From NCBI RefSeq assembly GCF_039555335.1, contig NW_027305503.1, forward strand, positions 82,501-146,500: a stretch of 64,000 nucleotides of DNA. The letters are read 5' to 3'. The stretch is from Amphiura filiformis. Taxonomy: Eukaryota; Echinodermata; Ophiuroidea; Amphilepidida; Amphiuridae. The notes beneath the pieces were generated by a model that saw only the letters and a list, made by a program, of their open reading frames with translations, was not told the DNA's origin and did no database searches. Made by a program: the position numbers and the translations under genes. This document shows, piece after piece, positions 19,546-60,598 of the stretch. Each line of letters starts with the position of its first letter. Positions within the stretch are counted from its first letter, which is position 1.

Positions 19546-19792
19546 CGCAGGGCTGTCAACTTTTTGGAATTGCTTGGCGTGAGACAAGCGGCGTACCAGG
19601 ATTTGCCGACTCCAATGGGGGGTTAGGAGCAACAAATTATTCATGACGATGCGTGAGATTTTGCTCATTTTCCAGCTTTTAGCGTGAGATTTACTACCTA
19701 AGCGTGAGATTATACTACCTTGGCGTGAGAAAGTGACCCAGTGCGTGCAGCGTGAGACTCACGGCCAATGCGTGAGAGTGCAGCCCTGAATC
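19546..19792. mobile_element. MITE-like end unit CAGGGCTG...CAGCCCTG
   Basis: A 247-bp unit bounded by CAGGGCTG and its inverse CAGCCCTG, with several GCGTGAGA words inside. A partial inverse copy lies at 24,265-24,425 and a left-end fragment at 38,128-38,180. It is either the outer end of the foldback element or a separate MITE that became part of both arms. Confidence 0.5.
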
Positions 19793-35616: not shown

Positions 35617-36959
35617 GGACAGAACCTGAATCCAGTCAGAAGCTATCTCATTGGGCGATGAAAATATAATACGAAAAACATAGAAATATCCAACACTATG
35701 GAACAATTTAGAGTCTCATTTTTGTAAGGAATTTCTATCTGAAATCCCTCAGGTAATTCTGGCTAGAAATACCCGAAATATCGAATCATGCTGTAAACAT
35801 CTAAACATGTTAAACACCATCTGATCTCTTCACTCTACCGTGCACATGGTATAACAATATTGATTAATCGAAACAACTTTGTGAGAGATCAGTGTTACAT
35901 GTCTTATTGGCTTTTAATGTGGCGTTCTGAAAAGTAAGCGTGCTAACTAGGAATTAAACAAAATATTAATTCCATACAGCTTAAAACACATAGCAAAGAC
36001 TTGCAATTAATGGAGTTCACATAATTTTCTTTCAGACTTGAAAGCAAGTATACTTCATATGTACCTGCACTTGGTACTATATTTTATGATAATGATGATT
36101 TTACTAGAAGTCTCTTTTGCCTGCTCTTTGGAGCCTTGCAAATGTATTAAGTTATGCTACTCTGCGCATAACATATTCTCAAACGAAACCCACTCATATC
36201 GGCAATTAGCTATACTTTGTTCCAATATCATGATTATCTACCAAAATTGGAACAAGCTAAATCCGTTGCTACTAAACATACAGCTAGCAAGACGTGATTT
36301 GCAAGCTGTATGCAAGCTTATATACAAATTCACGTTTCTGGAGTTACACTCCGTCATCAGTTGCGCTGCGAAGGTCTAGAATGGTTCTAAAACTGACCCA
36401 TGTTTAGATTTTGAACATAAATTCGATGTGTCGAATTATGTATCGGTTAGCTTTTACTAAAGCTCTCACGAATTACTACAGCGCCATGACAATGTCATCT
36501 TGCGCCGTAATATTGAATAATTCCAGACACTCTATAGGCTTACTACTTTACTTATTCATAGCAGTACAACCTATACTAGTAACATGCTACTTAGTTGAAG
36601 AATGTCTATAGTTGAATTATATCGTTTTTCTTATATAATATAGGCCTATATGGTATATCATATAAAAGCATACAAGAAAGCATAGATTCCGAACTTGGAT
36701 CTATGCAAATTTCAGCACGAGTATCAATTTTTGGTCTTTCGTGTGATGATTGCTAAAAAATGACCTTCCTGTCCTTAGGCACGAATATCCATTTCGGATC
36801 TCTCGTGTTAGGACAATAACATGAAAACAAAATTAATGAAGTCATGTTAGCATGATATTAAAGCTCAAGGTTGAACTTAAAAGCACATTCTAGTATATAC
36901 TAACTCCAGCTCTACAGGTACAGAGCTGCTGTATCATCAACGCCGAATGTGCAGTGCAA
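35617..36959. repeat. duplicated segment, copy 2; left flank of the giant element
   Basis: Near-identical to 13,824-15,030. It differs by an extra block of about 120 bp after CTCATTTTTG and by small indels (for example around 36,715-36,760). It ends at the target duplication of the giant P-like element (36,960-36,968), and its homology resumes at 59,196-59,236 on the other side. Low divergence points to a recent duplication; one of the two copies then received the insertion. Confidence 0.85.
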
Positions 36960-36966
36960 CTTTTAT

Positions 36967-37048
36967 CATAGACTGTAGAGAAGGGACCCACGTCTGTATC
37001 AAATATCAAAGTATCCGACCGCTTGCCAGTGTAGCCACGATGGTTGCG
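36967..37048. repeat. left terminus of the giant element
   Basis: CATAG, an 11-base stretch without a match at the other end, GGGACCCAC, then 43 bases and the 14-mer CCACGATGGTTGCG. A terminal repeat plus a separate subterminal inverted repeat recalls the 31-bp ends and 11-bp inner repeats of the Drosophila P element, which are transposase contact regions there. Confidence 0.7.
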
Positions 37049-37509
37049 CTGCACCTGTTGCGCTGACAGATACGAGATTATCCTAAATTTAGCCCAATGA
37101 CGACATTTACAATTTCGACCAATCAGCGATCGAGAAACAGACACACCTCCGCAGTCCAAAACTTCCGGGTTTGCTCGGTCCCGTGTTATCCAATGGCTCA
37201 AACAAGCTCCCCTTCATTGATTTGCTACGGGAATTTGCTCTGATTGAAAATCACGAAAGCCATCTAAACTTCAAGAGAAATATTTTTGCTGGCTTCTAAA
37301 AAAACTCCCATCAAATTCGGTTGGAGCGTTTAGAATAGATAGCGTCGGGAATCAGACCCAAAAGTAAACAAATCGAATGAATTGCACACACGTGAATCGA
37401 AAACAAAGGGCCATTTCATGATTTCTTTCGGATAATTCAGCGTGTAGATCATAGTTTTGAATCAGTTTGTAACATTTTCTGAAGATAATAGGCATTTTAT
37501 TTCTCAAAA
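37049..37509. promoter_or_regulatory. probable 5' region of the transposase gene
   Basis: About 460 bp between the left terminus and the first ATG. It contains GCGC- and CpG-containing words and a CCAAT near 37,190, but no clear TATA box. Placement suggests the transposase promoter. No element-specific motif was recognised. Confidence 0.35.
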
Positions 37510-40500
37510 ATGCCGCCGTTTCGGCCTTCTGAGGCATTTGATTATAGTTTTGGCCATGCAAGTTTGTGGTATCTTTTCACAATCGCGTTGTTCATCGCAG
37601 GCACTTTGGCTAACATTTGCATCGGTGGTAACTTGCGAGTGAATTGTGCCAATAAATTGCACGAATCGTGGACAGGTAAAGCACCAGATGAATATTTAAG
37701 CTTTGTACATCCAACTCCAAGAAAGGCGATAAAGGACTTGTTTGAAATACGAAAGGGAAAGAATCCAAAGTTCTGTGTGGAATGTGTACAGCATGCAGAG
37801 AATCAGTTAAAACAGGTAAGCTTAAATTCGTCCATCCATCCGAATATTGATTAATTGCAAAGTTCTTTATCTGTATAGCGTTTGCTCTTGCTTATTTCAG
37901 TGTATATATAAATATATGTGATGTAATGTTCTGGTAATTTTTTATAATTTAACATCTTAATTCTAATAAATACGGCTGTCAAGAAAATTGCAATCTTGCC
38001 AATATCAGTACCAGGGCAACTGGGCTGGCAATATTCATGTATGGCCAGGAAGTAATAATATTACTTTAAATACGTTATTAATAGAATAGACCCTGCATTG
38101 CGAATTGCCGCAACATACGTATACGCAGGGCTGTCAACTTTTTGGAAATGCTTGGTGCGAGACAGAGGCGTACCAGGATTTGTCGGGCTGGTGGAATTTC
38201 AGTGAAAATAAATCCAAATTTATCTCATGAAAACACACACACACACCCACACAAAATTGAAAAACAAAACAAATCATGCTGGTTTCTCTTCATCTATCTG
38301 TGATTTTACATGCATACAGCATGATAAGGTTTTCAAAACAAGACAATAATCGCCAAAATGCAAAAGTCGTGATCGGTCGGGCTGGTGGAATTAATGGGGT
38401 TTTTTCCCATCGCCTAAGAAGCATAATTTTGATACAACCATGTTTTCATATCTTTACAACAGAATCATCCACTGCTGCAAGAAGGAGATGTTGATACTCC
38501 AGGACCATCACAAATGCCACCACTATCTATGGCAGGAACTGTTGAAGATGAAGCTCCAATGGTACATATATCTGAGGAAGCACAGGACTTGAATCAAAGT
38601 GATAGATCATCTGCTGAAGGTAAAAGTGCTTGAAGGGAAACACTTTTTGTGCAACTTATTAATTTCATCTGTCAAACTTGACCACTCACGCAGGAACCGG
38701 TGCAATTACCGACATTGTACTCGTAGTATAACTTATTATGGATTCCCATTGAGAAAACATATTTATTTGAAAAAAACAAACAAATTTGTTCCTGAAATTT
38801 CAGTCAAAATCAATCCACTTTATTTTCATAAAAAAAAAATCTTGGGCTGTGGTTCTCAAGCCTAAGATCATGCTTAGACAGTGGCATAGCCAGGTTTTCA
38901 GATCGGGGGAGGGGTGAGCACAAACTTGCTAATGTACCAACGGGATTTTTTATGCCGAATTGTTGACCCCAATTTTTTTACCCAGTGCGCTCAAGAATCT
39001 GAAAAGTGTGTTTGTTTTTTTGGTGGGGGGAGGGGTTGTGTTCCTCGGACCTAGATTTTCACAAGTTTTATTAACACACGTCTATAGATATATACTAAAC
39101 TAAGGATGTAAACGGCCATTTTATTAGTGGGGGGGGAACATGTATTTTGCTTCTTCAAACTACATGCACATGCAGTTCACAAAAAATTATTGAACCTAAA
39201 TTTCTTTTGGCAAGCTCCACAAATCTTGCCAAATGTTTCCAGAATTTTTTTTTTTTTTTTTTTTAATCACAAAAAATTCTGCATTTCTTTTTTTTTTCTA
39301 ATCGGGCGATTTTACAAATGCGCAATTGAGACAAACTTTTTTTTTGCCTTACTGACAGCTTAAGATTAACCAATGGCCATGATGGGGGAGGCATATACCC
39401 TTACATTTAAATATGATCTGAAAAATTTAAAATAAAAACAACAACTTGGAATTCCTTGAATTGTGATTTCCATGCTACATTTTTGATTCATGGAAACAGT
39501 GTTCTTTTTAAGTTATCTAACAATTGGTTTTCTGTACAGGATCCAGCTACTCTCTGTGGTACCACACATATTCACCATTTACAACCACCACTGCTAATGG
39601 CGAAACCTCTCCATACATGTCTCGGTGCCATCAGAAACTTGTGTCTTCTTATGATCAGCATGTTCACAATCCTAAACCATCTGTTATTATGCCCTCTCCA
39701 CCTTGTGGTTGGTTTTCACGTCCACTCGAAGACGGATGCATGTTTTTATGGATGGAACAATTTAATCCCCAAAAGGACCCAGATGTTGTAAAGTCTGTTA
39801 TAATTAGGGAAAACGGAAGCTGGACTGTCAGAATTATGGGCGTAGAAGTACAGTCAGAACTTAAAAACTTTGCAACGTCAGTCGATTCACAAACTGCACC
39901 AAAATTGATCGAAACGGTGCATTCTCTCCATGTGTGCGTAGGGTACCCAAATATTGACTATCATAAATTTGTGAAAGATGGCAGGGTTGGTAATGATTGG
40001 ATCCAGCATAATCATACGGTTATGGTAGACGGAACTGTGTACAACTCGACTTTGCGATCAGCAAACTGCAAGATGTTAGTGCATCAACAAGGAAGCAGAT
40101 GCCAGGTTTGTGTACAGATCAGCAACAGGTTGCGTGCCCGTGACTCGGCAGCAAGCAAGCAAGCAAGCACAGATAGACTGTCATCAAGCAGTAGTGTCAA
40201 GTTCGGAAGTTTGAAAGTACAGGAACTGCAGCAAAGGTGCCAAAGTCTGGCCAGGGCAAAGAAGAATTTGCAAACCAGGATAAGGCGCGTACAGGCCAGG
40301 GTGGACAGAATTGTCCAAAGTGATGGAGTTGATATTGGCTCGTCCACATCCAATGCTTTGCACCAAGTTATGGTGCAAAACAACGACAAAATGGCCGAAA
40401 TGCTTAATGACCATCAGCCTGACTCTTTCGGTAAGCTGTTTTGGAATCAGCAGAGGCAAGCTGCTGAACTAAGAAACCAGAAAGGGATGAGATGGCACCC

Positions 40501-43500
40501 AATGGTGATAAAATGGTGTTTGCACCTCTGGTTTGCCTCAAAAAAGGCATTTAACATTATCAAATCATCAGGCGTTATCAAATTGCCATCAGATACCACC
40601 CTCAGAGACTATGTGCATTGGACAAAGCCCACAAGTGGTTTGACAGCAGCAGCAATCAAGCAACTCAAAAGAGAAATGAATTTTGAAGAAAGGCTGCCAT
40701 ATCAGAAATTCGTAGTTCTCGTCCATGACGAAATGAAAATTAGATCCGACTTGGTGTACCAAAAGTCAACTGGACGCCTGGTCGGTTTCACAGACTTAGG
40801 GGACTTCAACAATCAACTCCGGGACATAGAAAGTGTGCTTAAGAAAGAGACAAAACCAGAAGCAGCCATAGCCAATCAAATGTTTGTGCTGATGGTCCGC
40901 GGATTATTTTGGAACTTTACATTTCCCAACAAGCAGCACAACTGCCGATGAAATTTTTTCTATTTGTTGGGAAGCAATCGAGGCACTGGAAATGGCTGGC
41001 ATCAAGGTGGTAGCAATAACATCAGATGGGGCAGGGACTAATAGAAAGTTCTATGACATGAACAGCGCCCACAACAGCACCACTTCAACTCCAGCATTTG
41101 AAACTTTAAATCCGTACGCGGAGGACCATACCAGAAAGGTTTTCCTGCTCACTGATCTACCACATCTTGTGAAATGTGTGCGCAACTCGTGGTCACATTC
41201 TTTTGCACATAACAGGACACGCATGTTATGGGTAGGTATAGTAAAACCGTTTTAACCCATTTAGGGACCAATCGTTATTTACGGCAGGGGGGAATGGGTC
41301 TTTTGGCAAAAATATATTTAAAATTTAACAATCCCCCTCCTGGTTCAACTAAAATTTCAGGTTCCCCCTCCAGACCACAAACATTTTTTGTGTTCCCCCT
41401 AAATTTACCCATTCCCCCGCCATAAATAACGATCGCTCCCTTAGCAGGATGTCATTAAATCAAGTTCATATCACAATAAAAATTATGCATGATGATGTAT
41501 TTGTGTTAAGAATTGTATTTTCAAATAACATGTTTATTGTAATTTCACCTGACAGAGTGTCTGTGCTTCTTTCACTTGTCCACGAATATTGAAGGATTTA
41601 ATTTCTAATTTTACAAACTTGATTTCTGTTCATGCTTATGAAAAATATAATAAATATTGAAACAAATTTGTGAGGATCAATGTTTCTATATTGGCTAGAA
41701 TAACAGTGACAAAAATAATCCTTTGTTCTACTGGGCTGTATGAAATTAAAATTTTCGAGAAAATATGTTGCGGATAAAATTTGAGATTTTTTTACAGATT
41801 TTGCCATAAACTATCTATAAAAAATTGTTAATCCTTAGAACTTTTTTCGGAGCGATTACCGAATAGGGTGCATCTCATGGCAGTCTTGTAACAAGACTGC
41901 CATACCCCAACCCTAAACTCTGTAAACGAGGACTGGACTCAAGTTGCACCATATTCGGCAATTGTACCTTTTTTCTACACCTAAACCCTGTATGACTGCA
42001 TGAAATCATAATGAATGAATATTTAATTTCAGAATGGTAGCAATATATCATGGACACACCTGGAGCAGCTATACAAAGAAAATGTGAACATGAATGGTCT
42101 GTACCTGAACAAAAAACTGAAACATGAACATGTTGCACTGAACTCATTCAGCAGAATGAAAGTGTCTTTGGCTGCTCAGGTAAGGAACAAAATGTTATTG
42201 TGAATATGCAAAAATTTATTTTTAAGAAGAATTTATTTCTTGTACATGCATACAACATGATGTCATCAGCTTTTATGAGGAGTTTTGAGCATTAAACTAA
42301 ATTGTTTTGTGTGTACAAATTCTCTGTTTTAGCATGAATAGGCGACTAAAAACCCCTGTTCTATGGGCGTACGGACCTTTCAAGTAGGGTTGGTTGGTCT
42401 GGCTAAAATTACCCTAAAATTTCACCAAAATCTGAAGAAAAAAAATCAGAAGATTTTTTTGCAAACCTATTTTCTAAACTCTTTCAGTTTCAGTGGCTCC
42501 AAAACTGCTAATTGCTGGGTTCTCCAAAACAGTCGGTCAGGCCCGTAGAACCGGTTTTTTTTCCTTTTCTTAGTTTGTTTCATTTTTTTATGCATAACAG
42601 GTCCTGAGTAGCTCAGTAGCAAATGCCATTGAGCTGTATCAACCTTCCTCTACTGCAACAGTGGAATTTGTCCGTATATTTGACAAATTTTTTGACCTCC
42701 TGAATGTCAGAAGTAGACGTGAATGGTATGTCAAAAGAAAAGACAATCTGATGCCCTATGAGTCGGTAGAAGATGAACGCTTGAAGGTATGAATGCAATT
42801 TTAATATTACTGAATACTGTGAAAGTGGTTATTTTTGTGCTTTGCAGATTTTGAGCCACTTGTTTATAAATTCACACATTTTTATTTTTGTGGCAGCAAC
42901 ACTGAACATGAATTATCGTAGCGTGTTAATAACCACTTTTACAGTATACATTACTAGCAATCACCAATTGAAATTTATATCTTGAATAAACTATGGATGG
43001 AAGATCCAGGGATGACCTCAACAAGCGGTCATGTGTTGAGAAGGCTCCTAAAACGAGGGCGATTCATTGAGACTGGGACAAATTTTGCACAATTTTGTAT
43101 CAAAAATGAATCCTAAATTGAAAACAATGACCTTTTGTGAATTTTAAAAGAAAACACAAAACAATCCTTGTGGGGATGAGGATATTTGTACATAACTGAT
43201 GGTGTGTGAGTGTACATGCACTACATTTGTATTTCTACCATACAATGTAGGATGTGGGGTGTGTTTCTGTCCAAAATTTTTGCAGTTATGTACACATCTT
43301 TTGAATTTCTTTTCAGTGGCTAGAAAGGGACTTCATAGGCTACCTGGATGAGTGGAAGCAAAAAGTTCAAGCCCGAACCGGGCTATCAAAAACAGAACAG
43401 AACAAGATGATGATAACACAGGAAACCCAAATAGGGTTGTACAGAACAGGTAAACCTAACAATTGTGCCATAACATATTGTGGGTGTGGTTTCATTCAAA

Positions 43501-44274
43501 GGATTAAATTATTCATCGCATAAGTAGTGATGTAACCATAGACAGTATACGATGTAATAGAATTACTTTACTTCCCATAGCAATAAAATGGGTTTACACC
43601 ATTGGTGTAATGAATTTCGTTGGTTTTATCACAGGCAGTTCATTAAAAGTTTTGAATCTGTCACGCTAAAATAAACTTTTATATGCTGAAGTATCATCAA
43701 ATTCCAGAAGAAAAAAAAAAAAAAAATTATGGCCCTAGATCTGAGTTTCCTGCTAAATCCAGTAAAGTTACATCTGTGAACCTTGCACTAATTTTAATTT
43801 GAAATGCACTGGCAAATGAACTTAAAGTCAGGCAGCTTAACAAAATGATGCGGACAGCCCGGATAAAAGTTCCAAATTTGACGCTGTTGTCAGGGCTGTC
43901 CACATGTCTCAAAAAATTGTTGCTACCCTACCTGACTATTACAAATCCCAACTACTTTCTCTTGTCTTTCTACAGCACGCGGGTTTGTAGGAGTTGCAAG
44001 ATTCCTTCTGCAGCAGCCAGGTGTTCAGTTTCTGCTGAGTGAAAGATTTAACCAAGACCCTTTGGAAAGCTGCTTTGGCAACCAAAGGCAAATGCGTGGA
44101 GGTAATGAAGCACCAAACGCAGCAAGGTTTGACGAGCTGATGAATACCCAGCGGTTGAGGAGTTCCCAAAACATCAAGAATATGGGTGGTAACACTAAAC
44201 AAGAAACTGTGAAACTTTCCATTGACAACACAATTCTACCAAAGAGAACCAGAAAAAATGTTAAAAAACGTTGA
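37510..44274 (+). CDS. P-element/THAP9-like transposase, seven exons
   Basis: Exons: 37,510-37,815; 38,463-38,619; 39,540-41,231; 42,033-42,179; 42,601-42,786; 43,317-43,449; 43,976-44,274. All borders are GT/AG and phases agree; the product would be about 970 residues. After an N-terminus of about 150 residues, a basic coiled coil (LQQRCQSLARAKKNLQTRIR) lies near 380-420. The RNase H-like core has KGMRWHPMVIKWCLHLWF, a first acidic residue in VHDEMKI (near 550), a second in ITSDGAGTNRKF (near 650), then DLPHLVKCVRN. The last exon has FNQDPLESCFGNQR, whose Glu fits the third acidic position. The order matches P and THAP9 transposases. No THAP zinc finger is visible; exon 1 has only a CVEC pair, so the DNA-binding domain is unclear. 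One break: a TTTT at 40,907-40,910 has one T too many for the frame. The start ATG is the first in frame but an upstream exon is possible. Confidence 0.85.
38126..38180. repeat. fragment of the CAGGGCTG element in transposase intron 1
   Basis: CGCAGGGCTGTCAACTTTTT and the following 35 bases match 19,544-19,600 (left end of the 4.9-kb foldback), with small differences. Confidence 0.6.
38876..39010. repeat. repeat end fragment in transposase intron 2
   Basis: AGTGGCATAGCCAGGTTTTC followed by G-rich sequence resembles, in inverse orientation, the GCTGGCTACGCCCCTG end at about 59,810-59,825. Probably a truncated repeat of a common GGCGTAGCCAG-ended family. Confidence 0.4.
41264..41440. mobile_element. 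177-bp MITE in transposase intron 3, TTA target site
   Basis: The left end is GGGACCAATCGTTATTTACG with a following CGGCAGGGGGGAATGGG. The right end is its inverse with few mismatches, ending GATCGCTCCC. TTA is present on both sides (41,261-41,263 and 41,441-41,443). It is related by its GGGACC ends and TTA duplication to the elements at 52,701-52,980 and 59,259-60,530, which suggests a PIF/Harbinger-type source. Confidence 0.75.
42349..42559. mobile_element. MITE of the AACCCTGTTCTA family in transposase intron 4
   Basis: Left end AAAACCCCTGTTCTATGGGC, and a right end containing GCCCGTAGAACCGGTTTTTT as an imperfect inverse. An inner GGTCTGGC/GTCGGTCAGGC pair supports the same fold. It ends about 40 bp before the exon 5 acceptor. 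Confidence 0.6.
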
Positions 44275-46080
44275 TCTTCCTCCACTTCCCATTCAGCTAT
44301 ACAGAACATTATGGATGGAAGATGTTTGCAAAATGCTGCAAATTTATGGAGCTGTAGAGTAATTAAGTACTTAGTAATTAGTAGATGTCCAGTAAAGACT
44401 GAATAGAGAGACACAGAAAATGTAATGTTTAATTTCTGAACTGATGCTTTATTCCTGATAAAAAGCATGTTTGTCCATACACTGACTTATACAAGGTACA
44501 TGTACATGTTACTTAAAAAAAGTGTACATTAATAAGGCTCAAATACTCTGTAAACAAAGAATGTATACCTAGAGTTCTACAACCAGTAAAGTTGTTTTGT
44601 TTTCAAGATTTGAGAAACGACAGGATACGTACATTTTGTCTGAACTTTTTGCTGTGGCAAACAAGAGGGAATTTTAGTACTTGTCCATGTTTGCATAAAT
44701 AGTACTGTAGGCAGTATTGCGTACTTGTCTTCTGCTGATTTTGTGCGCTTTAAAGACAAACATAAATGTGTGTTTTTAGACATCAATCATTTAGATTTTT
44801 TGCCGGAACTACAATGTATACTGTGAGGATCTGTGGGTCCAATAAGTGACAATTTGGCTAAAAACACTTGAGTTGCCCTTACCGGACTGACCTGAATGAT
44901 GGACAATTTTTGGCCGCTCTTTTTGTTGTGGATGAAACTTTAATATCCACTCAGCATAGAAAATACAACCAGCAATAATAATGTGTTTTCCTCTCTTTTG
45001 ACATGTTAAAAAAACATATACCTCTCATTGAAGGTTTAAAATGGTTGAGTTTGCATAGGAAGAGAGAGAGAGAGAGAGAACAAACATATATAGGGCAACA
45101 CAATTATTTTTGCCTTGGTAATTAATGGTAGAATACTCACAGCATTACAGCATTGAAGGCCAATAAGTATCTTGAATTCACAACATTTTGTGATGAAATT
45201 TATTAAAAATAGCCCAAGCTATGCAAGGCCTACATTGTACATGTTGTATATGAATTGCATTATTAATCTAACCTTCATTATGTGCCTATGTACAGATACA
45301 GAAAAGTAAATATGAATCTTAAAAACCGACTCATGAGAAAGATTCTTCATCCAAATAAACTTGGTAAGATATGATACGCAAATGTATGTGTATTGCACGC
45401 AATAATATACATGTACAGGTATATCAAGATGCAAGTTGAATGATACAATAAGTGTTTTATAGTCTATGATACCAGTGTACATCCATGCACCAAGTTTCCT
45501 GTACATGAAGATAACACTGATAATTAGTTCTTATTTACTGGAAACTGTAATTACGACAAATAACCGTTGTTGTAAACATAAAACTGTGACAAAATTTTGA
45601 CATTATATTGTTAACTTGAAAGAAATAGATTATATGTATTTCCAAAATGTAAACAATAAAAGGTGACAAACCTTTTTCATTGGTATTTAATGATTTGGGA
45701 CATTTTAAATATTCTTTTCACAAAAGGTGAGAAAAAAAAAAAAAAGCTCTTGTTCTATGGGCGCCGTGAATTGTCAAGGATTTTGAAGGCCTGTTTTTTT
45801 TTCATTTTCTGGAGACTCTAAATGATCCTAAAGATCACTGTGCAAACAAATATTGAAAATGTTTTGAATTTTTTAAAACAAAAAATCTGGTCAAAATCAA
45901 TCAACTTCGGCCAAGAGTCTGCCAAAAAATACCTAAAAAGTAAAATCTGGGTCGATCGGTTGGGCGCATAGAACTTATTGTTGTTTTTTCTGTCACCTTA
46001 AAAGAGCTAGATATGTTTGATTTAAATTTCGTAAATGTTTTTACTGCGTATAGTACAGGAGCAGCAACCTCAAAAAAATG
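44275..46080. other. interval between transposase stop and inner palindrome
   Basis: No gene. A GA microsatellite lies near 45,061-45,079. A MITE of the AACCCTGTTCTA family occupies about 45,734-45,985 (GCTCTTGTTCTATGGGCG and inverse GGGCGCATAGAACTT). The rest is AT-rich and unique. Confidence 0.4.
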
Positions 46081-46239
46081 ACTTCGTTCACCCTCCACTA
46101 CATACAAGGTTTGACACCATAGGTAGTTAGTATGGACCCTCTAGATCACTGCTAGGTAGGTAGTGGACTCAAATTGTGGTATCACTTTTTTTTTACAGAT
46201 CATTTTATGTGTGGACGTATAATCGCATAAAATCACCAA

Positions 46240-49200
46240 AAATAGGACAAAATTAAGGGGTAGGGGAGATATAAATTCTCATAACTCAACTTTTACTCAT
46301 AATAATGAATTTATTTTGGTATGAATATGTAGCTAATTGATTGTTCTAACTGCCTAGTATTATTTGAAAGCAAACCTAGGTTTCATTTGATCATGATTGG
46401 AAGTGGCCAGTCCATACACCAGTGAAAAATCAGATTTTTCACAACAATGCGCAGGGTGGGTGTTTTTGTGACATTGGCTTCAAATTTTACTATTGTGCCA
46501 ATTTCTATTTTCAAAATTAATTAAGTTTCCTTTTTTTAATTTTGTTTTTAATATCAAGCATATCTAGGCAAACTTTGATGTTCTGGTTCAAATATTTATG
46601 TATGTGCATGTTTGCTTGCATGTTGGTTTGTGTTGTGTGGGTTTGGGGTAGGTGTGTGTGGGGGGGGGGGGGAGGTGTGGTGGGTGCGGGGTGTGTATAG
46701 GGTTCAGGGTTGGGGTGTTTTACATGTTTTAATATGTCACTCGGCTGAACTATATAAGTTCTATTAACAAAATTTGTTTGTTAAGTTGCCATTCATGTAA
46801 TATTTTGAATATTTATATGTGTGGGTGTGAGATCAACCGCTGTTTGTCAGAAAAATAGACTGAAAATGTAAAAAAAATAGTTACTTTTCCACATGTAGCA
46901 GCGTGTGTAACAATATTAAGGGGTAGGGGAAATATAAACTCAACTTCAACTCATGATAAGGAATTCATTTTCGAATTAATATGTAGCTAATTGATTGTTC
47001 AAACGTGTTAGTATTATTTTAAAGCAAAGCAAACATTAATTGTCAGGTGGATAGCCATAAAATGTGAGAAAAGGTTACTTTTCTATGTATAACCATGTCA
47101 AATATGGCATTATTAAGGGGTAGGGGAAATAAAAACCACCATAACTCAACCTTTACTCATAATAATGAATTCATTTTGGTATCAACATGTAGCTAATTGA
47201 TTGTTCTAACTTTCCAGTATTATTTTTAACAGAAAAACCACAAGATAGACATAAAATATGATAAAAATGTTAATTTTCCAATGTGTAACAGCGTAAAATT
47301 TGACAATATTAAAGGTTAGGGGACATACAAACCAACGTAACTCGACATTTATTCATTATAATTCATTCATTTTGGCATTTATATATAGCTATTTGGTTGT
47401 TGTAATCTTTTAAAGCAAAATAACCATTAATTGTTAGCTGGAAAGACATAAAATGTTAAAAAATGTCAATTTTTCAGGTGTAGTACCGTAAAATATGACA
47501 ATATTAAGGTGTAGGGGATATTCAAATCACCAAAACTCAAGTTTTACTGATGAAAATGAATTCATTTTGGTAACAATATGTAGTTAATTGTTAGTTCTAA
47601 CTTTCTAGTATTATTTAAAAGCAATTAAACCATTAGTTGTGAGGTAGATAGACATAAAATGTACGAACATGTTAATATTCAATGTCTAACAGCGTAAAAT
47701 ATGACAATATTAAGGGGTAAGGGGACATACAAATCACCAAAACACAGATTTCACTGACGAAAATGAATTCCATTTTGGTATCAATATGTAGCTATTTGAT
47801 TGTTCTCATTTTCTGGCATTATTTTAAAAACAATTAAACCATTAGTTATCAGGTAGTTAAACATACAATATGAGAAAAATGTTAATATTCAATGTCTAAC
47901 AGCGTAAAATATGACAATATTAAGGGGTAGGGGACATACAAACACCAAAACTCAAGTTTTACTGATGAAAATGAATTCATTTTGGTATCAATATGTAGCT
48001 ATTTGATAGTTCTAACCTTCTAGTATTATTTTAAAAGCAATTAAGCCATTAGTTGTCCGGTAGATAGACATAAAATGTATGAAAATGTTAATATTCAATG
48101 TCTAACAGCGTAACATATGACAATATTAAGGGGTAAGGGGACATACAAATCACCCAAACTCAAGTTTTACTGATGAAAATGAATTCATTTTGGTATCAAT
48201 ATGTAGCTATTTGATAGTTCTAACCTTCTAGTATTATTTTAAAAGCAATTAAGCCATTAGTTGTCCGGTAGATAGACATAAAATGTATGAAAATGTTAAT
48301 ATTCAATGTCTAACAGCGTAACATATGACAATATTAAGGGTAAGGGACATACAAATCACCCAAACTCAAGTTTTACTGATGAAAATGAATTCATTTTGGT
48401 ATCAATATGTAGCTATTTGATAGTTCTAACCTTCTAGTATTATTTTAAAAGCAATTAAGCCATTTATTGTCCGGTAGATAGACATAAAATGTATGAAAAT
48501 GTTAATATTCAATGTCTAACAGCGTAAAATATGACAATATTAAGGGGTAAGGGGACATACAAATCACCAAAACACAGGTTTCACTGACGAAAATGAATTC
48601 CATTTTGGTATCAATATGTAGCTATTTGATTGTTCTCATTTTCTGGCATTATTTTAAAAACAATTAAACCATTAGTTATCAGGTAGTTAAACATACAATA
48701 TGAGAAAAATGTTAATATTCAATGTCTAACAGCGTAAAATATGACAATATTAAGGTGTAGGGGACATACAAATCACCAAAACTCAAGTTTTACTGATGAA
48801 AATGAATTCATTTTGGTATCAATATGTAGCTATTTGATAGTTCTAACCTTCTAGTATTATTTTAAAAGCAATTAAGCCATTAGTTGTCCGGTAGATAGAC
48901 ATAAAATGTATGAAAATGTTAATATTCAATGTCTAACAGCGTAACATATGACAATATTAAGAGGTAAGGGGACATACAAATCACCCAAACTCAAGTTTTA
49001 CTGATGAAAATGAATTCATTTTGGTATCAATATGTAGCTATTTGATAGTTCTAACCTTCTAGTATTATTTTAAAAGCAATTAAGCCATTAGTTGTCCGGT
49101 AGATAGACATAAAATGTATGAAAATGTTAATATTCAATGTCTAACAGCGTAACATATGACAATATTAAGGGGTAAGGGACATAAATCACCCAAACTCAAG

Positions 49201-52200
49201 TTTTACTGATGAAAATGAATTCATTTTGGTATCAATATGTAGCTATTTGATAGTTCTAACCTTCTAGTATTATTTTAAAAGCAATTAAGCCATTTATTGT
49301 CCGGTAGATAGACATAAAATGTATGAAAATGTTAATATTCAATGTCTAACAGCGTAAAATATGACAATATTAAGTGTGATGAGGACATACAAATCACCAA
49401 AACACAGGTTTCACTGACGAAAATGAATTCCATTTTGGTATCAATATGTAGCTATTTGATTGTTCTCATTTTCTGGCATTATTTTAAAAACAATTAAACC
49501 ATTAGTTATCAGGTAGTTAAACATACAATATGAGAAAAATGTTAATATTCAATGTCTAACAGCGTAAAATATGACAATATTAAGGTGTAGGGGACATACA
49601 AATCACCAAAACTCAAGTTTTACTGATGAAAATGAATTCATTTTGGTATCAATATGTAGCTATTTGATAGTTCTAACCTTCTAGTATTATTTTAAAAGCA
49701 ATTAAGCCATTAGTTGTCCGGTAGATAGACATAAAATGTATGAAAATGTTAATATTCAATGTCTAACAGCGTAACATATGACAATATTAAGAGGTAAGGG
49801 GACATACAAATCACCCAAACTCAAGTTTTACTGATGAAAATGAATTCATTTTGGTATCAATATGTAGCTATTTGATAGTTCTAACCTTCTAGTATTATTT
49901 TAAAAGCAATTAAGCCATTAGTTGTCCGGTAGATAGACATAAAATGTATGAAAATGTTAATATTCAATGTCTAACAGCGTAACATATGACAATATTAAGG
50001 GGTAAGGGGACATACAAATCACCCAAACTCAAGTTTTACTGATGAAAATGAATTCATTTTGGTATCAATATGTAGCTATTTGATAGTTCTAACCTTCTAG
50101 TATTATTTTAAAAGCAATTAAGCCATTTATTGTCCGGTAGATAGACATAAAATGTATGAAAATGTTAATCTTTAATGTCTAACAGCGTAACATATGACAA
50201 TATTAAGGGTAAGGGACATACAAATCACCCAAACTCAAGTTTTACTGATGAAAATGAATTCATTTTGGTATCAATATGTAGCTATTTGATAGTTCTAACC
50301 TTCTAGTATTATTTTAAAAGCAATTAAGCCATTAGTTGTCCGGTAGATAGACATAAAATGTATGAAAATGTTAATATTCAATGTCTAACAGCGTAACATA
50401 TGACAATATTAAGGGTAAGGGACATACAAATCACCCAAACTCAAGTTTTACTGATGAAAATGAATTCATTTTGGTATCAATATGTAGCTATTTGATAGTT
50501 CTAACCTTCTAGTATTATTTTAAAAGCAATTAAGCCATTTATTGTCCGGTAGATAGACATAAAATGTATGAAAATGTTAATATTCAATGTCTAACAGCGT
50601 AAAATATGACAATATTAAGGGGTAAGGGGACATACAAATCACCAAAACACAGGTTTCACTGACGAAAATGAATTCCATTTTGGTATCAATATGTAGCTAT
50701 TTGATTGTTCTCATTTTCTGGCATTATTTTAAAAACAATTAAACCATTAGTTATCAGGTAGTTAAACATACAATATGAGAAAAATGTTAATATTCAATGT
50801 CTAACAGCGTAAAATATGACAATATTAAGGTGTAGGGGACATACAAATCACCAAAACTCAAGTTTTACTGATGAAAATGAATTCATTTTGGTATCAATAT
50901 GTAGCTATTTGATAGTTCTAACCTTCTAGTATTATTTTAAAAGCAATTAAGCCATTAGTTGTCCGGTAGATAGACATAAAATGTATGAAAATGTTAATAT
51001 TCAATGTCTAACAGCGTAACATATGACAATATTAAGAGGTAAGGGGACATACAAATCACCCAAACTCAAGTTTTACTGATGAAAATGAATTCATTTTGGT
51101 ATCAATATGTAGCTATTTGATAGTTCTAACCTTCTAGTATTATTTTAAAAGCAATTAAGCCATTAGTTGTCCGGTAGATAGACATAAAATGTATGAAAAT
51201 GTTAATATTCAATGTCTAACAGCGTAACATATGACAATATTAAGGGTAAGGGACATACAAATCACCCAAACTCAAGTTTTACTGATGAAAATGAATTCAT
51301 TTTGGTATCAATATGTAGCTATTTGATAGTTCTAACCTTCTAGTATTATTTTAAAAGCAATTAAGCCATTTATTGTCCGGTAGATAGACATAAAATGTAT
51401 GAAAATGTTAATATTCAATGTCTAACAGCGTAACATATGACAATATTAAGGGGTAAGGGGACATACAAATCACCCAAACTCAAGTTTTACTGATGAAAAT
51501 GAATTCATTTTGGTATCAATATGTAGCTATTTGATAGTTCTAACCTTCTAGTATTATTTTAAAAGCAATTAAGCCATTAGTTGTCCGGTAGATAGACATA
51601 AAATGTATGAAAATGTTAATATTCAATGTCTAACAGCGTAAAATATGACAATATTATGGGGTAATGGGAAATACAAATCAACCAAACTCAAGTTTTACTG
51701 ATGAAAATGAATTCATTTTGGTATCAATATGTAGCTATTTGATAGTTCTAACCTTCTAGTATTATTTTAAAAGCAATTAAGCCATTAGTTGTCCGGTAGA
51801 TAGACATAAAATGTATGAAAATGTTAATATTCAATGTCCAACAGCGTAAAATATGACAATATTAAGGGGTAAGGGGACATACAAATCACCAAAACACAGG
51901 TTTCACTGACGAAAATGAATTCCATTTTGGCATCAATATGTAGCTATTTGATAGTTCTAACTTTCTAGTATTATTTTAAAAGCAACTTAAAATTCATTAG
52001 TTGTCAGGTAGATAGACATAAAATGAAAATGTTAATATTCAATGTCTAACAGAGTAAAATATGACAATATTAAGGGAAAGGGACATACAAATCACCAAAA
52101 CACAAGTTTCACTGACGAAAATGAATTCCATTTTGGCATCAATATGTAGCTATTTGATTGTTCTCATTTTCTGGCATTATTTTAAAAGCAATTAAGTTTC
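46240..52200 (+). repeat. left array, 206-bp monomer with higher-order period
   Basis: A variant monomer (CACAGGTTTCACTGACG, ATTGTTCTCATTTTCTGGCA, TTATCAGGTAGTTAAACATA) recurs near 47,740, 48,570, 49,410, 50,650 and 51,900. Spacings are thus about four or six monomers, with blocks between it near-identical. Monomers nearest the outer end (46,240-47,500) are the most diverged. This fits repeated unequal exchange inside the arm. Confidence 0.8.
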
Positions 52201-52700
52201 CCACGAGGGGTTGAAGGTCATAATGGGGCCAATACTAAAAAATTATCCTATCATGTTGTAATGTTGTAATCTCAAATTGTTCCTCTCATCGCTAAGAATT
52301 AAAAAAAAGACAATTGTCATAGTTCTACGAAGCTTAGTTCAGGGGTTATAACGTCGAATATATCAATATCATAAATAAAGGTCAAATTTTTAAAATGGTC
52401 CAATTGCACCAATTAACGTAAGAAACCTCAATCGTATACTACATTCAAATTTTGGTGCAACGATTTGTATTCCTGTGTTCCCCTTCACAGTTAATGCAGC
52501 CAAAGTTGAGTTATGGTAATATTTCCCCTACCCTTAATATTATCATATTTGACACTGTTACACATGGAAGTTTTTTCTCACATTTCCTTTGTATCTACAT
52601 TACAACTAATGATACCAGAACGTTCGATGAATTCATTATCAAGAGTAAAAGTTGAGTTATGGGAGTTTATATTTCCCCTACCTTGATATTGTCATATTTA

Positions 52701-52980
52701 GGGACCGTTCACAAACACTTGTAAGGGGGGCCTGATGCAAAAAGGGGAGGGGTCTGAAAATTTTGACCCTCCTAGGGGGGGCCTGAAAAAAATGATCATA
52801 AATTTTCCTGGAAAAATTGAGTTTATATGATTTTCTATGGGGTTGACCCATAATTTTCATGTCAAAAGGGGCCCTACAATTTTTAAGGTCTGTAAAGGGG
52901 GGGGGGGCTCGAAAGAATATTTTGCGATGAAATTTTTTTTTGCATCAGGCCCTCCCTTACAAGTGTTTGTGAACGGTCTA
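52701..52980. mobile_element. 280-bp MITE inserted in the right array, TTA target site
   Basis: The ends are GGGACCGTTCACAAACACTT (left), followed by GTAAGGGGGGCC, and the inverse ACAAGTGTTTGTGAACGGTC (right). TTA lies on both sides. Neighbouring array units read GTCATATTTACGCTG without a break, which gives the empty site and confirms the borders. It is related to the elements at 41,264 and 59,259. Confidence 0.85.
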
Positions 52981-55267
52981 TTACGCTGCTAGATATAGAA
53001 AATGACTTCTTCTGACAGTTTCTGTGTATCTACCTGACAACTAATGATCGCTTTGTTTATAGAAAGTTAGAACAGCCAATCAGATACATTTTGATACCAA
53101 GATGAATTCATTTTCATGAGTAAAAGTTGAGTTATGGCAGTTTACATTTCCCCTACCCCATAATATTGTCATATTTACGCTGTTAGACATAGAATATTTA
53201 CCCTTTCCTCACAGTTACTGTGTATCTACCTGACAACTAATGATCGCTTTGCTTTGAAATAATACTAGAAAGTTAGAACAATCACTTAAATACATTTTGA
53301 TACCAAGATGAATTCATTTTCATGAGTAAAAGTTGAGTTGTGGCAGTTTATATTTCCCCGACCCCTTAATATTGTCATATTTATTTATGCTGTTAGACAT
53401 AGAATAGTTACCTTTTCCTCACAAATACTGTGTATCTACCTGACAACTAATGATCGCTTTGCTTTGAAATAATACTAGAAAGTTAGAACAATCACTTAAA
53501 TACATTTTGATACCAAGATGAATTCATTTTCATGAGTAAAAGTTGAGTTGTGGCAGTTTATATTTCCCCTACCCCTTAATATTGTCATATTTATTTATGC
53601 TGTTAGACATAGAATAGTTACCTTTTCTTCACAAATACTGTGTATCTACCTGACAAATAATGGTCGCTTTGCTTTAAAATAATACTAGAAAGTTAGAACA
53701 GTCACTTAGATACATTTTGATACCAAGATGAATTCATTTTCATGAGTAAAAGTTGAGTTATGGCAGTTATAAATTTCCCTTACCCCCTTAATATTGTCAT
53801 TTTACGCTGTTAGACATAGAAAATTTACCTTTTCCTCACAGTTTCTGTATATCTGCCTGACAAATAATGGTCGCTTTGCTTTAAGATAATACTAGAAAGC
53901 TAGACCAATAACTTGGATATATTTTGATACCAAGATGAATTCATTTTCATGAGTAAAAGTTGAGTTATGACAGTTTACATTTCCCTACCCCGTAATATTG
54001 TCATCTTCACGCTGTTAGACATAGAAAAGTTACCTTTTCCTCACAGTTTCTGTATATCTGTCTGACAACTAATGGTTGCTTTGCTTTAAAATGATACTAG
54101 AAAGTTAGAACAATCACTTAGATACATTTTGATACCAAGATGAATTCATTTTCATGAGTAAAAGTTGAGTTATGGCAGTTTATATTTCCCCTACCCCTAA
54201 TATTGTCATATTTACGCTGTTAGACATAGAAAACGTACCCTTTTCTCACAGTTTCTGTGTATCTACCTGACAACTAATGGTCGCTTTGCTTTAAAATAAT
54301 ACAAACAAGTTAGAACAATCAATTAGATATACATATTAAATTGAATTGAATAGAATTAATACCAAGATGAAGTCAATATCATGAGTAAAATATTGAGTTC
54401 TGATGATTTATTTTCCCTTACCCCTTAATATTTTTCTATGTTATGCTGATATACGAGGGAAATCAACATCAGTTTTTGTTGGGTTTTTGGGGTTTTTTTA
54501 AAAATTTTTTTGTCTTTTTCCCAGTGGTTACTCACGTCCTACACATAAATATTCACATCAATGGAAACTTAACGGATTTTGTAAATGGAAGTTGGTGCAG
54601 TGAAGTGACATATTAAGACATGTACACACACATTCATCCCTCACCCCACACATACCCTATGTACACCCAGCTCCCCCCCACACACACACACACCTCGTCC
54701 CACAGACACCCCAACGAACTCATACATATTATAATGATTGGAATTGTTACAATAATGTTTCCCTTGATATGCTTAACATTAAAAACAAAATTAAACATTA
54801 AAATTTAAATTAAAAAATTAAAAATGGAAACTGAATCAATTTTGAAAATATAAAGTGGTATAGTTGTGAGATTTGAGGCCAATGTCAAACTTTACACATA
54901 TGGTTTAAAAAATCAGATTACCACTCATTTATGGACTATATACTTCCAAATATCCTCAAATGAAACCTGTTTTTGTTTAAAAATAATACTAGAAAGTTAG
55001 GAAAATCATTTAGCTACATATTGATACCAAAATGAATTCAAAATCAAGAGTAAAAGTTGAGTTATGGGAATTTATATCTCCCCTACCCCTTAATTTTGTC
55101 CTATTTTTGGTGATTTTATGCGATTATACGTCCATACATAAAATGACCTGTAAAAAAAAAGTGATACCACAATTTGAGTCCACTACCTACCTAGCAGTGA
55201 TCTAGAGGGTCCATACTAACTACCTATGGTGTCAAACCTTGTATGTAGTGGAGGGTGAACCAAGTCC

Positions 55268-58200
55268 TTATTTAGGCCCCCTGTGGGATCTTGCTCCTGG
55301 ACTAGTAGTATCTGTGCTTGCAGCAGCTGTACCCCTCTTCAAACCTGTACGGAGTCCCCGTGATCCTTTGGTTGATTTTTTTGATAACATCTTGTAACGC
55401 TCAAGAATCACCCTGGCAAAGGAAAATCCTCTAATTTGTATATAAAAGTCAACAATGCACTGGAGGAGCACTAGTGCATCCTGCTCTGAGGTTATGTGCC
55501 CACTGGACATCTTATCCCAGAATTCCAGTAATTTGGTGTCTGACAGTGCAGCATGCACACAAAATTCCCTAATGTCAGTGCCACGTAGCTTATCGACTGA
55601 TCCGGGTAAGTTGTTGCGGACATTAGTTTCCAACTGTCGGAAAAAAGAGGTATGTTAAGTCGTTCACAATTTTTAGTCCACCTCTTGTTTGCGATGTAAC
55701 CCACTCTTTGGTATAGCTGAGCCGTGTTTCTTTATTACTACCCTTGGTCATGTTGTCAATCACCTGCTGCATCTGCGCCTTTCCTGATGACATGTGGGCA
55801 ATTTTATTTGGAAGGGCCTTCGCCATATACCCAGAGGTATATCGTAGGGCATTCTCCTCTATTGCATCAAATTTGCGAATTGTGGCTGGTTGGTCCTGGG
55901 GTGGAATTTGTTCATGCCTTAGGGTAAGGTTCTGAAAGAGCATTCTTCCAAACATCTGAAGAAAAAAAATTGGGGGATTAGCGATGCCACAAAGTTGGTC
56001 ACATAAGTTGCTTATTGCCTGGCGAAATACGGGAGTGTTTCTGAAACTGTGAAAGCTTTGCTGCATAGCCTGACGCCTCTGCGAGCCCAAACTCAATCGC
56101 TCACTAGCTCTGATAGATGGCCACAAGAGTGTAAGAATTGCTGTAAATTGTGTCCAGAGCGTTACCCCATATGTCCGTTCTCGTAGAGCTGCTCTGCATA
56201 CACTTGTAACATGCTTAACAGCAGGAGCATGCTCAAATGTCTCCTCGTTCACCATTTCGTTGCTATCCATTTGTGTGATAACTTCGGAGAGAATCTCCTC
56301 TGATGCACTTGTTGCTTTCTCCAGCGTGAAAGACGTTTTAGGCCTTGGTATGGCTGTGGACAATTAAATAACAGAAAGTTTTATTAATGTGTGTCTTAGT
56401 GAAATTGTACATGGTTCTGTTCTCCAAGCCATTATGGTCAGTTAGTTTACTGAATGACAAATCATTGTCATTTACACAACCAAAAAACAAACAAATGTAA
56501 TATTTAGCATAAAATTAAGTGCAGCTGTGTTCAAGTTACATTAATTTTCAAGACACGCATTTGTAAAATCGCGAGATTTGAAAAAAAAAAAAAAAAATGC
56601 AGAAATTTTGTTTATTTCAAGAAAAATTCTACCAAAATCAGACTTTTTTTTCAAAATACCATAAGTCGGGAATAAAAAAACCCGCATTTCGCATTTGTTT
56701 TCAAACCACTCGTGAGCTTTGAGACTAACCTTTTTTTGTTTGGACTAATTTAGAACATTTAATTTCTTTCCATGCTATTTCATTCCAAAACATTCCAAAA
56801 GAGCAAAAAAAAAGTTGTTCTTAAAAGACAGGACGTGCACATTTTCCCACAAGAAATTGGTTGGGAAGTTGCCGAGAAAAGTAAATTTTTCAATATGTTT
56901 GCAATGAGTACTGGGGTACGGTACCTCTTAAAAGAGTGTTTGTATTTTCTTCTACAACAAACCTTTTTGTCCAGGTTCGATAGTAAAGTCTGATGTACAA
57001 ATGTATAAAGTTTGAATACCGGTAATTGAATAAAAATGTAGAATTATTTGCACAAGAAATGTTCTTCTTTGAATTATTGTCGTCTCAATTTAAAATTTTG
57101 TATTTAAAATCAATACATGGGAGAATTTGTAGCAGAAAACCTTTAGTTTACACCACCAACAAATCACAGGAAGCTTAAAACAGTTTTTGATTTTTTTCCC
57201 CCAAAATATTTCAGTCAAAACTAATAAAAAAAAAGAAGGTTTTTAATTCGGAACTGGCTAAAAAAAAGAAAAGGGAAAACAAAACACCTGTTTTACCAAG
57301 TACCATAGGACCTGCCCCCCCCCCTCAATTTCTGGGGTTTGTTAAATTTTTTTTTTTAAAGATTTTTTCAACAAATTTTAAACTTTTTGAATACCGGTAC
57401 TTAAAGAGAACTTTAAATAAATAAGTTGATTAGAGAACATGGATCATTTCCAAGACTTTTTGTAGTATTCTAGGGGGTCAATACCTAAAAGAAGAAAAAA
57501 AAGCACTGTTGGAAATTTACATTGAAAAAAAATTCCTCCCTCCATCAATTCATGAAAATCCTCTGGACAAGAACCAAAACATTAATTTTATACGGCCTAT
57601 GTAGTAGATGTGTTTTGCCATAGATTATAAAAAAACCCAGTTTTACCATGGTTTTACGGGCTGATAAGACTTTCAAGTAGAGTCGGTCGGTCAGGATTTT
57701 TTTCTTTCTTGTGATTAAGATATCACCGAAAGATTTAAAAATTTGGCAAAAATTAGATGAAAAAATGAAAAAAATGTCAGTCAAATCAATTTTGGCCCCC
57801 CCAAAAGAAAATAATGTCCTACCTTTCTTTCGTGGTGTACGTTTTGTTGCTGTAGCTGATGTGGTAGTGGGCAAAGATTCTGGACCTGAAGCTGTCGAAC
57901 CAGTGGCTGCACTGGAAGAACTAGCCTCATCACTCTCATCCTCTGTTACAAAGAAAGAAAACAAATGTAGGCCATATTTTAATACTTTGCAGCAGGTAAA
58001 AAGTGTCACAATCATGTACATGTATGCATAACTCTTTATTAGCATGATTTCGTATCTCACCTTCGCATCTCGCCTGTGTACAGTCATGACAGTGCATATC
58101 TTGTCCTCGCATCTGATTTGAACTTTTTTTGTGCAAATATTCTCAAACAAAACATTTCAGTCCAAACCATTATAAACTAAAGGACCTTGATGAGGAAAAC

Positions 58201-58897
58201 CAGATCAAATTATGTGGCAAGATTGATCTGGTAGTGGTAGACCACTGACTCGCATTTAATGGGAGTAGAGAAACCAAATAATATAAATCTGCATTTTGAT
58301 GCTATTGTTTATTGCAAGGGCGAGATACAAACTAGACTAACAAACACGAGATCAGCCAAGACCGAAAAGTACTAATAAAACTTCATACATACTGCAGTCA
58401 TACAAACAAATAAATTATGGAAATATGCAGGCATTCAATAATTTCATCGCTCATGATCAGGCTAGGAAATGAATTTGAAATTGGAAAAAAGAATTTTTAA
58501 CTAGCCTGGCCGGCAAGTGGCATGCATCATGCATGCATAAAATGGGGATTTTTTTTGGATTTTGTTTAAATGTGTTTGTCGGATCATGCCAACGCGAAAT
58601 ACAAAAACGTGCACCGATCGGATAATAATTAAGTCTACTATTCACCGGATATTATGTGTAGAAATTAAAAGTAATACATTTATCAAAAGATAAATGCAAC
58701 CACATTTCGACTCCGCGCATTCCCGGTCGATGTGGCCGTGTTAAATGAGAAACAAGTTTCCGAATTCGTAGGGTTTGTTGATAATTCACCGCGATACATT
58801 TCGAAACAAAATGATGAAACTTACCGATATCATCAAAAACGGCCGCTAGTTGTAGCTCATCAAATTCACGAAAGTCTGCATATTCCTCCGATTCCAT
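55268..58897 (-). CDS. unrecognised second gene of the giant element, three exons
   Basis: Minus-strand exons 58,897-58,825, 57,942-57,823 and 56,353-55,268 join in matching phase with GT/AG borders and would give about 425 residues. Exon 1 is short and acidic (MESEEYADFREFDELQLAAV). Exon 2 is Ser/Thr/Ala-rich and ends in a basic KRTPRKK, a possible nuclear signal. Exon 3 is helical and carries ENALRYTSGYMAKALPNKI, EWVTSQTRGGLKIVNDLTYL and a C-terminal VDFYIQIRGFSFARVILERY. The pattern of a GY motif followed by W...RGGL...Y.LF is one I associate with uncharacterised invertebrate proteins, but I cannot name a function. One break: an A6 run at 55,641-55,646 has one base too many for the frame. 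The stop codon lies three bases from the edge of the palindrome. It could be an accessory protein of transposition or a captured host gene. Confidence 0.7.
56364..57822. other. intron 2 of the minus-strand gene
   Basis: AT-rich, with A/T homopolymers and a fragment of the AACCCTGTTCTA MITE family near 57,640-57,720 (CTTTCAAGTAGAGTCGGTCG). No additional exon was recognised. Confidence 0.4.
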
Positions 58898-59136
58898 TTT
58901 ATAGATAACTTATAGTTACAAAATGAAATAAATGGAAATCTACTACGATGAATACACGAAAAATGTTGAACATTCGGCGAAAGTGAACAGTCATGGAAAT
59001 AAACAAACACCGCGGTGCATGCTGGGAAAAAGTTCCAACCGCGCACGCGCAGGAGTGGAGACCTGCCGATTGCCAGAGAAAGGTCGATGCCCAGAGGCCT
59101 AATCCCGTTGCGTAACTCTAATCCTACTTTTACGAT
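58898..59136 (-). promoter_or_regulatory. probable promoter of the minus-strand gene
   Basis: CpG-rich patch at 59,010-59,100 (GCGCACGCGC) just upstream of the minus-strand ATG and inside the right terminus. On the minus strand TTTCCCAGCATGC resembles a ZNF143/Staf-type promoter site. No TATA box is evident. Inferred from position and composition only. Confidence 0.35.
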
Positions 59137-59186
59137 CGCAACCATCGTGGGATCAAAAGATGCCGCTTGGATGTGGGTCCCCTATG
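59137..59186. repeat. right terminus of the giant element
   Basis: The 14-mer CGCAACCATCGTGG at 59,137-59,150 is the exact inverse of the left subterminal repeat. GTGGGTCCC at 59,173-59,181 is the inverse of GGGACCCAC. CTATG closes the element. Spacing between the two blocks is 22 bases here against 43 on the left, so the ends are not symmetric. Confidence 0.7.
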
Positions 59187-59258
59187 CTTTTATCAAGTGT
59201 GGTTTTCATGGCCGGTCTTGTAAACAAGCCAGCCAAAAACGTTTTTTAAAATAATTTA

Positions 59259-60530: not shown

Positions 60531-60598
60531 TTAAACATTCAAGATGCCTTTTTCCCTTTAAAGAAATGTTTGAACATATTCTTTTTACCTACACAAAC

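Follow-up and report, generated by a model that had tools for sequence, protein, structure and literature searches.

A 22-kb P-superfamily insertion with two convergent genes in the genome of Amphiura filiformis

P elements serve as a model for GTP-dependent transposition and, to our knowledge, are known with one transposase gene only. They are described as duplicating 8 bp of target sequence (PMC7776569), as compared with mostly 7 bp for Galileo, a member of the same superfamily (PMC4168063), while zebrafish Pdre2 starts with CATACC, carries 12-bp subterminal inverted repeats and is flanked by 8-bp target-site duplications (PMC10983969). RAG-like transposons are built from adjacent, convergent RAG1L and RAG2L genes between terminal inverted repeats and have 5-bp duplications (PMC7204232). 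Here, we analyzed a 64,000-nucleotide stretch (‘the window’; contig NW_027305503.1, positions 82,501 to 146,500), eukaryotic by its spliced genes, from the ophiuroid Amphiura filiformis, whose nanopore-based genome assembly is reported to show a recent repeat burst, chiefly of DNA transposons (PMC11310086). Within it lies a single 22,220-bp insertion with defined ends, a gene encoding a P-type catalytic core (gene 1) and, convergent with it, a gene from a conserved protein family (gene 2), setting it apart from a single-gene P element of a few kb. We favor, as moderately probable, its interpretation as a two-gene P-superfamily transposon of the cut-and-paste type, present as a decayed copy, in which gene 2 acts with the transposase and an inner palindrome is secondary. 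Pending further copies, such a gene content would be new for the P superfamily.

The edges of the inserted unit (36,967-59,186) could be fixed independently of its terminal repeats, by comparison with a paralog in the same window. The left flank (35,847-36,968) aligned to 13,930-15,038 with 98.6% identity over 1,122 columns, a second piece of the flanking repeat matched its relative at 99.1% over 108 columns, and the right flank (59,189-59,236) was identical to 15,032-15,079 at 48 of 48 positions. Since the paralog reads straight across the insertion point, the 22,220 bp represent a single insertion into a repeat. The two flanks have 9 bp in common, CTTTTATCA, where the paralog reads CTTTATCA, with one T fewer; if the element runs CATAG...CTATG, the target duplication of this one insertion is the 7-bp CTTTTAT. 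A preliminary description of this DNA had proposed a 22-kb element with a shared flank of 7-9 bp, and both proposals are borne out, the empty-site paralog, the ends and the protein domains being in agreement. The interrupted repeat, 1.1 kb in size, has two copies in the window (13,824-15,079 and 35,617-36,968), each shortly after a satellite array. The features that delimit the element are as follows.

13,824-15,079, plus strand: the empty site, a paralog of the target repeat without the insertion, by sequence comparison
36,960-36,966, no strand: left target-site duplication CTTTTAT; without fixing the precise ends, the shared stretch is the 9-bp CTTTTATCA
36,967-36,994, plus strand: left terminal repeat, consisting of CATAG, 11 extra nucleotides and GGGACCCACGTC
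37,035-37,048, plus strand: subterminal 14-mer CCACGATGGTTGCG, 68 bp from the left end
59,137-59,150, minus strand: exact inverted copy of the 14-mer CCACGATGGTTGCG, 36 bp from the right end
59,170-59,186, minus strand: right terminal repeat, CATAGGGGACCCACATC
59,187-59,193, no strand: right target-site duplication CTTTTAT, by flank comparison

Both ends open with CATAG and continue with GGGACCCAC, which adjoins it at the right end and is set off by 11 extra nucleotides at the left, so that the matched short termini noted earlier do exist, albeit as an imperfect pair. The sequence GGGACCCACRTC lies at 36,983-36,994 on the plus and at 59,170-59,181 on the minus strand, and both it and the 14-mer are confined within the window to the two ends of the element, even with one substitution allowed. 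As a control, 100-bp stretches were paired at random 2,972 times; 14 of the pairs shared an exact inverted match of at least 14 nt, all inside satellite arrays or the palindrome. The subterminal 14-mer of the preliminary description is thus exact and specific to the ends, and the locus displays the end design of the P superfamily, namely inverted termini starting with CA together with subterminal inverted repeats. Given that the Drosophila P transposase is described as binding 10-bp sites internal to the ends (PMC7776569), the 14-mers are candidate transposase binding sites.

Gene 1 starts near the left end and was reconstructed from open frames and splice consensus, which is the sole basis for exons 1 and 2; for parts of exon 3 and of the last exon, support comes from direct comparison at the translated level with the relatives P0005 and P0006.

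37,510-44,274, plus strand: gene 1, P-superfamily transposase, seven predicted exons, ~973 amino acids
37,510-37,815; 38,463-38,619; 39,540-41,231; 42,033-42,179; 42,601-42,786; 43,317-43,449; 43,976-44,274, plus strand: exons of gene 1

The predicted protein, whose frame is broken once near 40,920, matched the Pfam families PF21787 (E=5e-21) and PF21788 (E=4e-20), which together with PF21789 cover the P-type RNase H-like DDE domain and its GTP-binding insertion. The family for the C-terminal RNase H half, PF21789, scored just below its curated cut-off of 24 bits (23.0 bits, E=8e-5) and reached 26.4 bits for the gene 1 exon alone. A profile built from the main exon and two relatives retrieved the Drosophila P transposase 6p5a from PDB sequences (E=9e-13). 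Residues D551, D651, D694xxH, D800 and E905 of the prediction supply the catalytic D, D, DxxH and E plus the GTP-site Asp, and via P0006 they align to D230, D303, D339, D444 and E531 of DmTNP. P0006, a predicted ‘Transposable element P transposase’ from the thrips Frankliniella fusca, is the closest named relative (30% identical, with 66% of the query aligned).

Apart from this core, gene 1 appears to differ from the P element and THAP9 proper. Pfam listed no THAP domain (PF05485) for the 973-residue prediction at E values up to 5, nor for P0006 at E values up to 10, and the pattern C-x2-4-C-x35-53-C-x2-H was absent from all six frames of the element, although a THAP domain might be split between exons. 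A C-x10-C-x2-C knuckle with one more cysteine upstream, a pattern spotted by eye, is common to gene 1, P0005 and P0006 and may constitute a different DNA-binding finger. The second difference concerns the C-terminus: from the catalytic Glu to the end of the protein there are 68 residues in gene 1 and P0006 alike, as opposed to ~220 in the Drosophila P transposase (counted from E531 to a total length of 751 residues). The P/THAP9-like transposase postulated for this end is therefore substantiated with respect to its catalytic core, but neither a THAP domain nor a long C-terminal domain was found.

At the opposite end, the second multi-exon gene of the preliminary description was recovered as a three-exon gene on the minus strand, convergent with gene 1; its start codon lies 289 bp inward of the right end.

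58,897-55,268, minus strand: gene 2, member of a conserved family, three exons, ~425 amino acids
58,897-58,825; 57,942-57,823; 56,353-55,268, minus strand: exons of gene 2, with the stop codon at 55,268-55,270

Up to a frame break at about 55,641-55,645, the spliced model is identical to the NCBI protein P0001 of Amphiura filiformis. Besides P0001, gene 2 has five relatives with 37-44% identity, all of which align to the main exon on either side of the break; the only named member of the family is called ‘uncharacterized protein’. Gene 2 proteins returned no accepted domain match in Pfam or NCBIfam and only unrelated, weak matches among PDB sequences (best E=0.12). The N-terminus is acidic (14 of the first 32 residues) and the C-terminal end basic. 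Inspection by eye suggested that the extra N-terminal residues of P0003 and P0008, which precede the exon boundary between A and IPRP, resemble a read-through intron; because their frame runs in from this intron-like stretch, the intron position is probably conserved. A Chou-Fasman analysis that had indicated a helix leaning of gene 2 was dropped, as the control (the GTP-binding domain of P0006, alpha-helical according to the literature) came out strand-leaning.

Each of the two genes thus bears one frame break, as could be expected of genes decaying together within one element. The present copy looks inactive, with sequencing error a possible alternative given the nanopore-read assembly. The genes also have an intron motif in common. 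One copy, containing CGATTTTACAAATGCG, lies at 39,272-39,322 (plus strand) in a gene 1 intron, ~220 bp before exon 3, and the other at 56,556-56,609 (minus strand), sense to gene 2 and ~200 bp before its exon 3. The copies are 85% identical over 54 columns and include an exact 16-mer that occurs only there in the window, even at up to two substitutions. This motif may represent either a cis-element common to both genes or a short repeat of the genome.

The empty site in the paralog, the two ends and the protein domains support a single insertion of the P superfamily that carries two convergent genes. From these features, we infer the following course of events. With its RNase H-like DDE domain and GTP-binding insertion, the gene 1 product would recognize the subterminal 14-mers, bring the CATAG ends together and excise the element in a cut-and-paste reaction that probably uses GTP; reinsertion would then generate a duplication of 7 bp, or at most 9 bp. 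Gene 2, transcribed toward gene 1 from the other end, would be a conserved component that regularly accompanies gene 1 and assists in transposition, and the palindromic satellite between the 3' ends, along with small nested repeats, would have enlarged the element secondarily. Several points weigh against this interpretation. A single copy was seen in the 64-kb window, and P0001 is listed on a single contig as one sequence, which would allow gene 2 to be single-copy. Relatives of gene 2 or the transposase were absent from viral contigs, as were relatives of gene 2 from prokaryotic contigs. Gene 1 has no detected THAP domain, and published autonomous P elements of Anopheles measure 4.2-7.5 kb (PMC1562414). 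As to novelty, exact-word searches of the open-licence literature, covering titles and the starts of abstracts and not exhaustive, retrieved no P-superfamily element with a second protein; an exact-word search of the same literature likewise found no report of a P element with a missing THAP domain. If the two-gene interpretation is true, another convergent two-gene recombinase would stand beside RAG1/RAG2, and one could ask whether transposase domains can split into subunits.

What gene 2 might do in such an element can be read in more than one way. It could encode an accessory or regulatory protein, involved in end pairing, targeting or repression and unrelated to the C-terminal domain of P transposases, in the manner of mudrB or of RAG2-like genes relative to their transposases. 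The lack of an accepted Pfam or NCBIfam match fits this notion, as does the convergent two-gene layout, which recalls RAG-like transposons (PMC7204232). We regard this accessory role as quite possible while leaning slightly against it.

The space between the 3' ends of the two genes is largely taken up by a 9.2-kb palindrome (about 46,080-55,266), whose unequal arms end in satellite arrays of 208-210-bp units, oriented one way at 46,936-52,196 and the other way at 52,981-54,329.

46,080-52,196, plus strand: left palindrome arm, with an edge of ~225 bp, a further arm and the 208-bp array at 46,936-52,196
52,981-55,266, minus strand: right palindrome arm, with the 210-bp array at 52,981-54,329 and its edge

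The inner palindrome announced in the preliminary description is real; that it forms an integral foldback core is a different matter, since its identity gradient and a second foldback in the window fit a nested or secondary origin at least as well. For it to belong functionally to the element from the outset, as in a foldback P element like Galileo, rather than being a later insertion, seems to us possible but rather doubtful. The palindrome begins 1 nt past the stop codon of gene 2, and no exact direct repeat of at least 6 bp was found at its edges, both of which speak for an integral part. So does the precedent of Galileo, a P-superfamily element described as having foldback-like long inverted repeats (PMC4168063); these, however, are terminal, whereas the ones observed here are internal. 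Moreover, the palindrome edges are 97% identical (218 of 225 outer columns), as opposed to 72-89% per 75-column window in the inner arm, a gradient like that of a mobile unit whose ends are conserved. The window also contains a second foldback (~19,625-24,423) with 21-bp repeats near both edges and no target duplication discernible by eye, which has no similarity to the palindrome of the transposon; foldbacks are therefore not special to this element. Judging from these sequence features, we favor the palindrome as a nested or secondarily expanded foldback satellite and not an essential core.

Small nested repeats are likewise present within introns of gene 1 or in the space separating the two genes, such as TTAGGGACC at 41,261 and 52,698 and TTCTATGGGCG at 42,359 and 45,753. 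Their inverted ends were recognized by eye and, for 52,703-52,978, by sequence comparison. Just to the right of the insertion, a separate small element at 59,255-60,535 has 37-bp inverted ends (94.6%; GGGACCGTTCA...), and its start motif recurs inside the transposon at 52,701.

A more far-reaching view of gene 2 starts from the short C-terminus of gene 1. In Drosophila, the C-terminal domain of the P transposase is described as sitting on a disordered linker against another subunit, contacting transposon and target DNA, and ending in a stretch rich in basic residues (PMC7776569). A domain placed in this way, on a flexible linker and against another subunit, is of a type that could turn into a subunit of its own. 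Gene 1 might accordingly represent the catalytic half of a split P transposase that lost, or never had, the THAP and C-terminal domains, with gene 2 providing the DNA-contacting C-terminal domain in trans. Consistent with such a split, both gene 1 and P0006 end soon after the catalytic Glu, and all five gene 2 proteins with a visible C-terminal end have a basic tail (net charge +5 to +9 from GFS[FY]AR onward in four relatives, and +11 over the last 60 residues of the window protein). In addition, residues 118-150 of P0002, containing ENALRYTAGYIVRKMPSK, weakly match Tnp_P_element_C (PF12596; E=0.12), a family not listed for gene 1 or P0006.

This match is below the cut-off, however, and ranks last among the three weak matches that P0002 yielded, the other two scoring better; we know of no tie between those two families and transposons. 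PF12596 was found in one of six family proteins (window gene 2, P0002, P0003, P0004, P0007 and P0008), in neither of two pieces of window open reading frames (ORFs), and not in a scan of the family consensus. A cut P0002 piece also gave no PF12596 match, but it lacked the first 11 of the 33 matched residues. In total, gene 2 proteins and ORF pieces yielded eight weak matches among 24,736 families, and a P-transposase family is unlikely to be among them by chance, an argument made after the fact. Gene 2 furthermore matches no P transposase chain among PDB sequences, although the P transposase chain there that gene 1 matches is only 569 residues long, and comparison of gene 2 with the gene 1 main-exon profile gave nothing. 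Overall, we consider a split transposase unlikely. By extension, it is improbable, though conceivable, that the element represents a split-transposase branch of the P superfamily in which the catalytic protein has neither a THAP nor a C-terminal domain and a convergent gene of an undescribed family takes over the DNA-clamping role of the C-terminal domain in trans, amounting to a two-subunit recombinase of RAG1/RAG2-like layout and P ancestry.

Gene 2 could also have come from another mobile element or from the host, trapped by nesting or capture. One copy of the element was available, P0001 was found on one contig only, and the inverted ends of the small nested repeats suggest that insertions into the element have occurred, all in favor of trapping. 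Yet the start of gene 2 lies 289 bp from the right end, its orientation mirrors that of gene 1, and no exact inverted 12-mer brackets it alone (58,898-59,136 versus 44,275-55,600). Both genes are, besides, similarly decayed, and the family to which gene 2 belongs is conserved, with its only named member labeled as uncharacterized. A trapped origin strikes us as unlikely. As for an artefact, with unrelated ends and a flank match due to chance duplication or misassembly, satellite arrays do assemble poorly and the published Amphiura assembly derives from nanopore reads (PMC11310086), but both edges are fixed by the paralog and the ends match one another, rendering this explanation highly improbable.

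Elsewhere in the window, we noted satellite arrays at 6,543-13,802 (~146-bp units) and 30,329-34,461 (~185-bp units). The remnant of a retrotransposon resembling long interspersed nuclear elements (LINEs) lies at 15,890-18,523 on the minus strand (reverse transcriptase, RVT_1, E=2e-21), with weaker DNA similarity to it at 62,710-62,889 and 63,407-63,699. An exon at 5,336-5,836 on the plus strand, coding for part of a sialyltransferase-like glycosyltransferase of family 29 (Pfam E=3e-16), probably belongs to a host gene, and 4,161-4,233 on the minus strand was called as tRNA-Thr (GGT) by ARAGORN and as a tRNA also by Rfam.

How, then, does the two-gene P-superfamily transposon that we favor relate to described systems? 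It resembles RAGL/ProtoRAG in having two convergent genes, one catalytic and one partner, between terminal inverted repeats (PMC7204232); RAGL/ProtoRAG differs in belonging to the Transib/RAG1 catalytic family and in its 5-bp duplications, and gene 2 has no accepted Pfam or NCBIfam match. The Frankliniella fusca protein P0006 is akin to gene 1 as its closest named relative, in having no THAP domain listed and in its 68 residues after the catalytic Glu, while being a predicted protein only. Galileo of Drosophila likewise combines a P transposase with long inverted repeats and makes mostly 7-bp duplications (PMC4168063), the length seen here if the ends are CATAG...CTATG, but its inverted repeats are its termini, whereas those of the present element are internal, and its transposase is described as having a THAP domain (PMC3688188), while none was found in gene 1. 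Relative to Pdre2/THAP9, the absence of a detected THAP domain and of a long C-terminus, the second convergent gene and the size of 22 kb mark the element as different; with them it shares the P catalytic core, ends starting with CATA, subterminal inverted repeats and a short target duplication.

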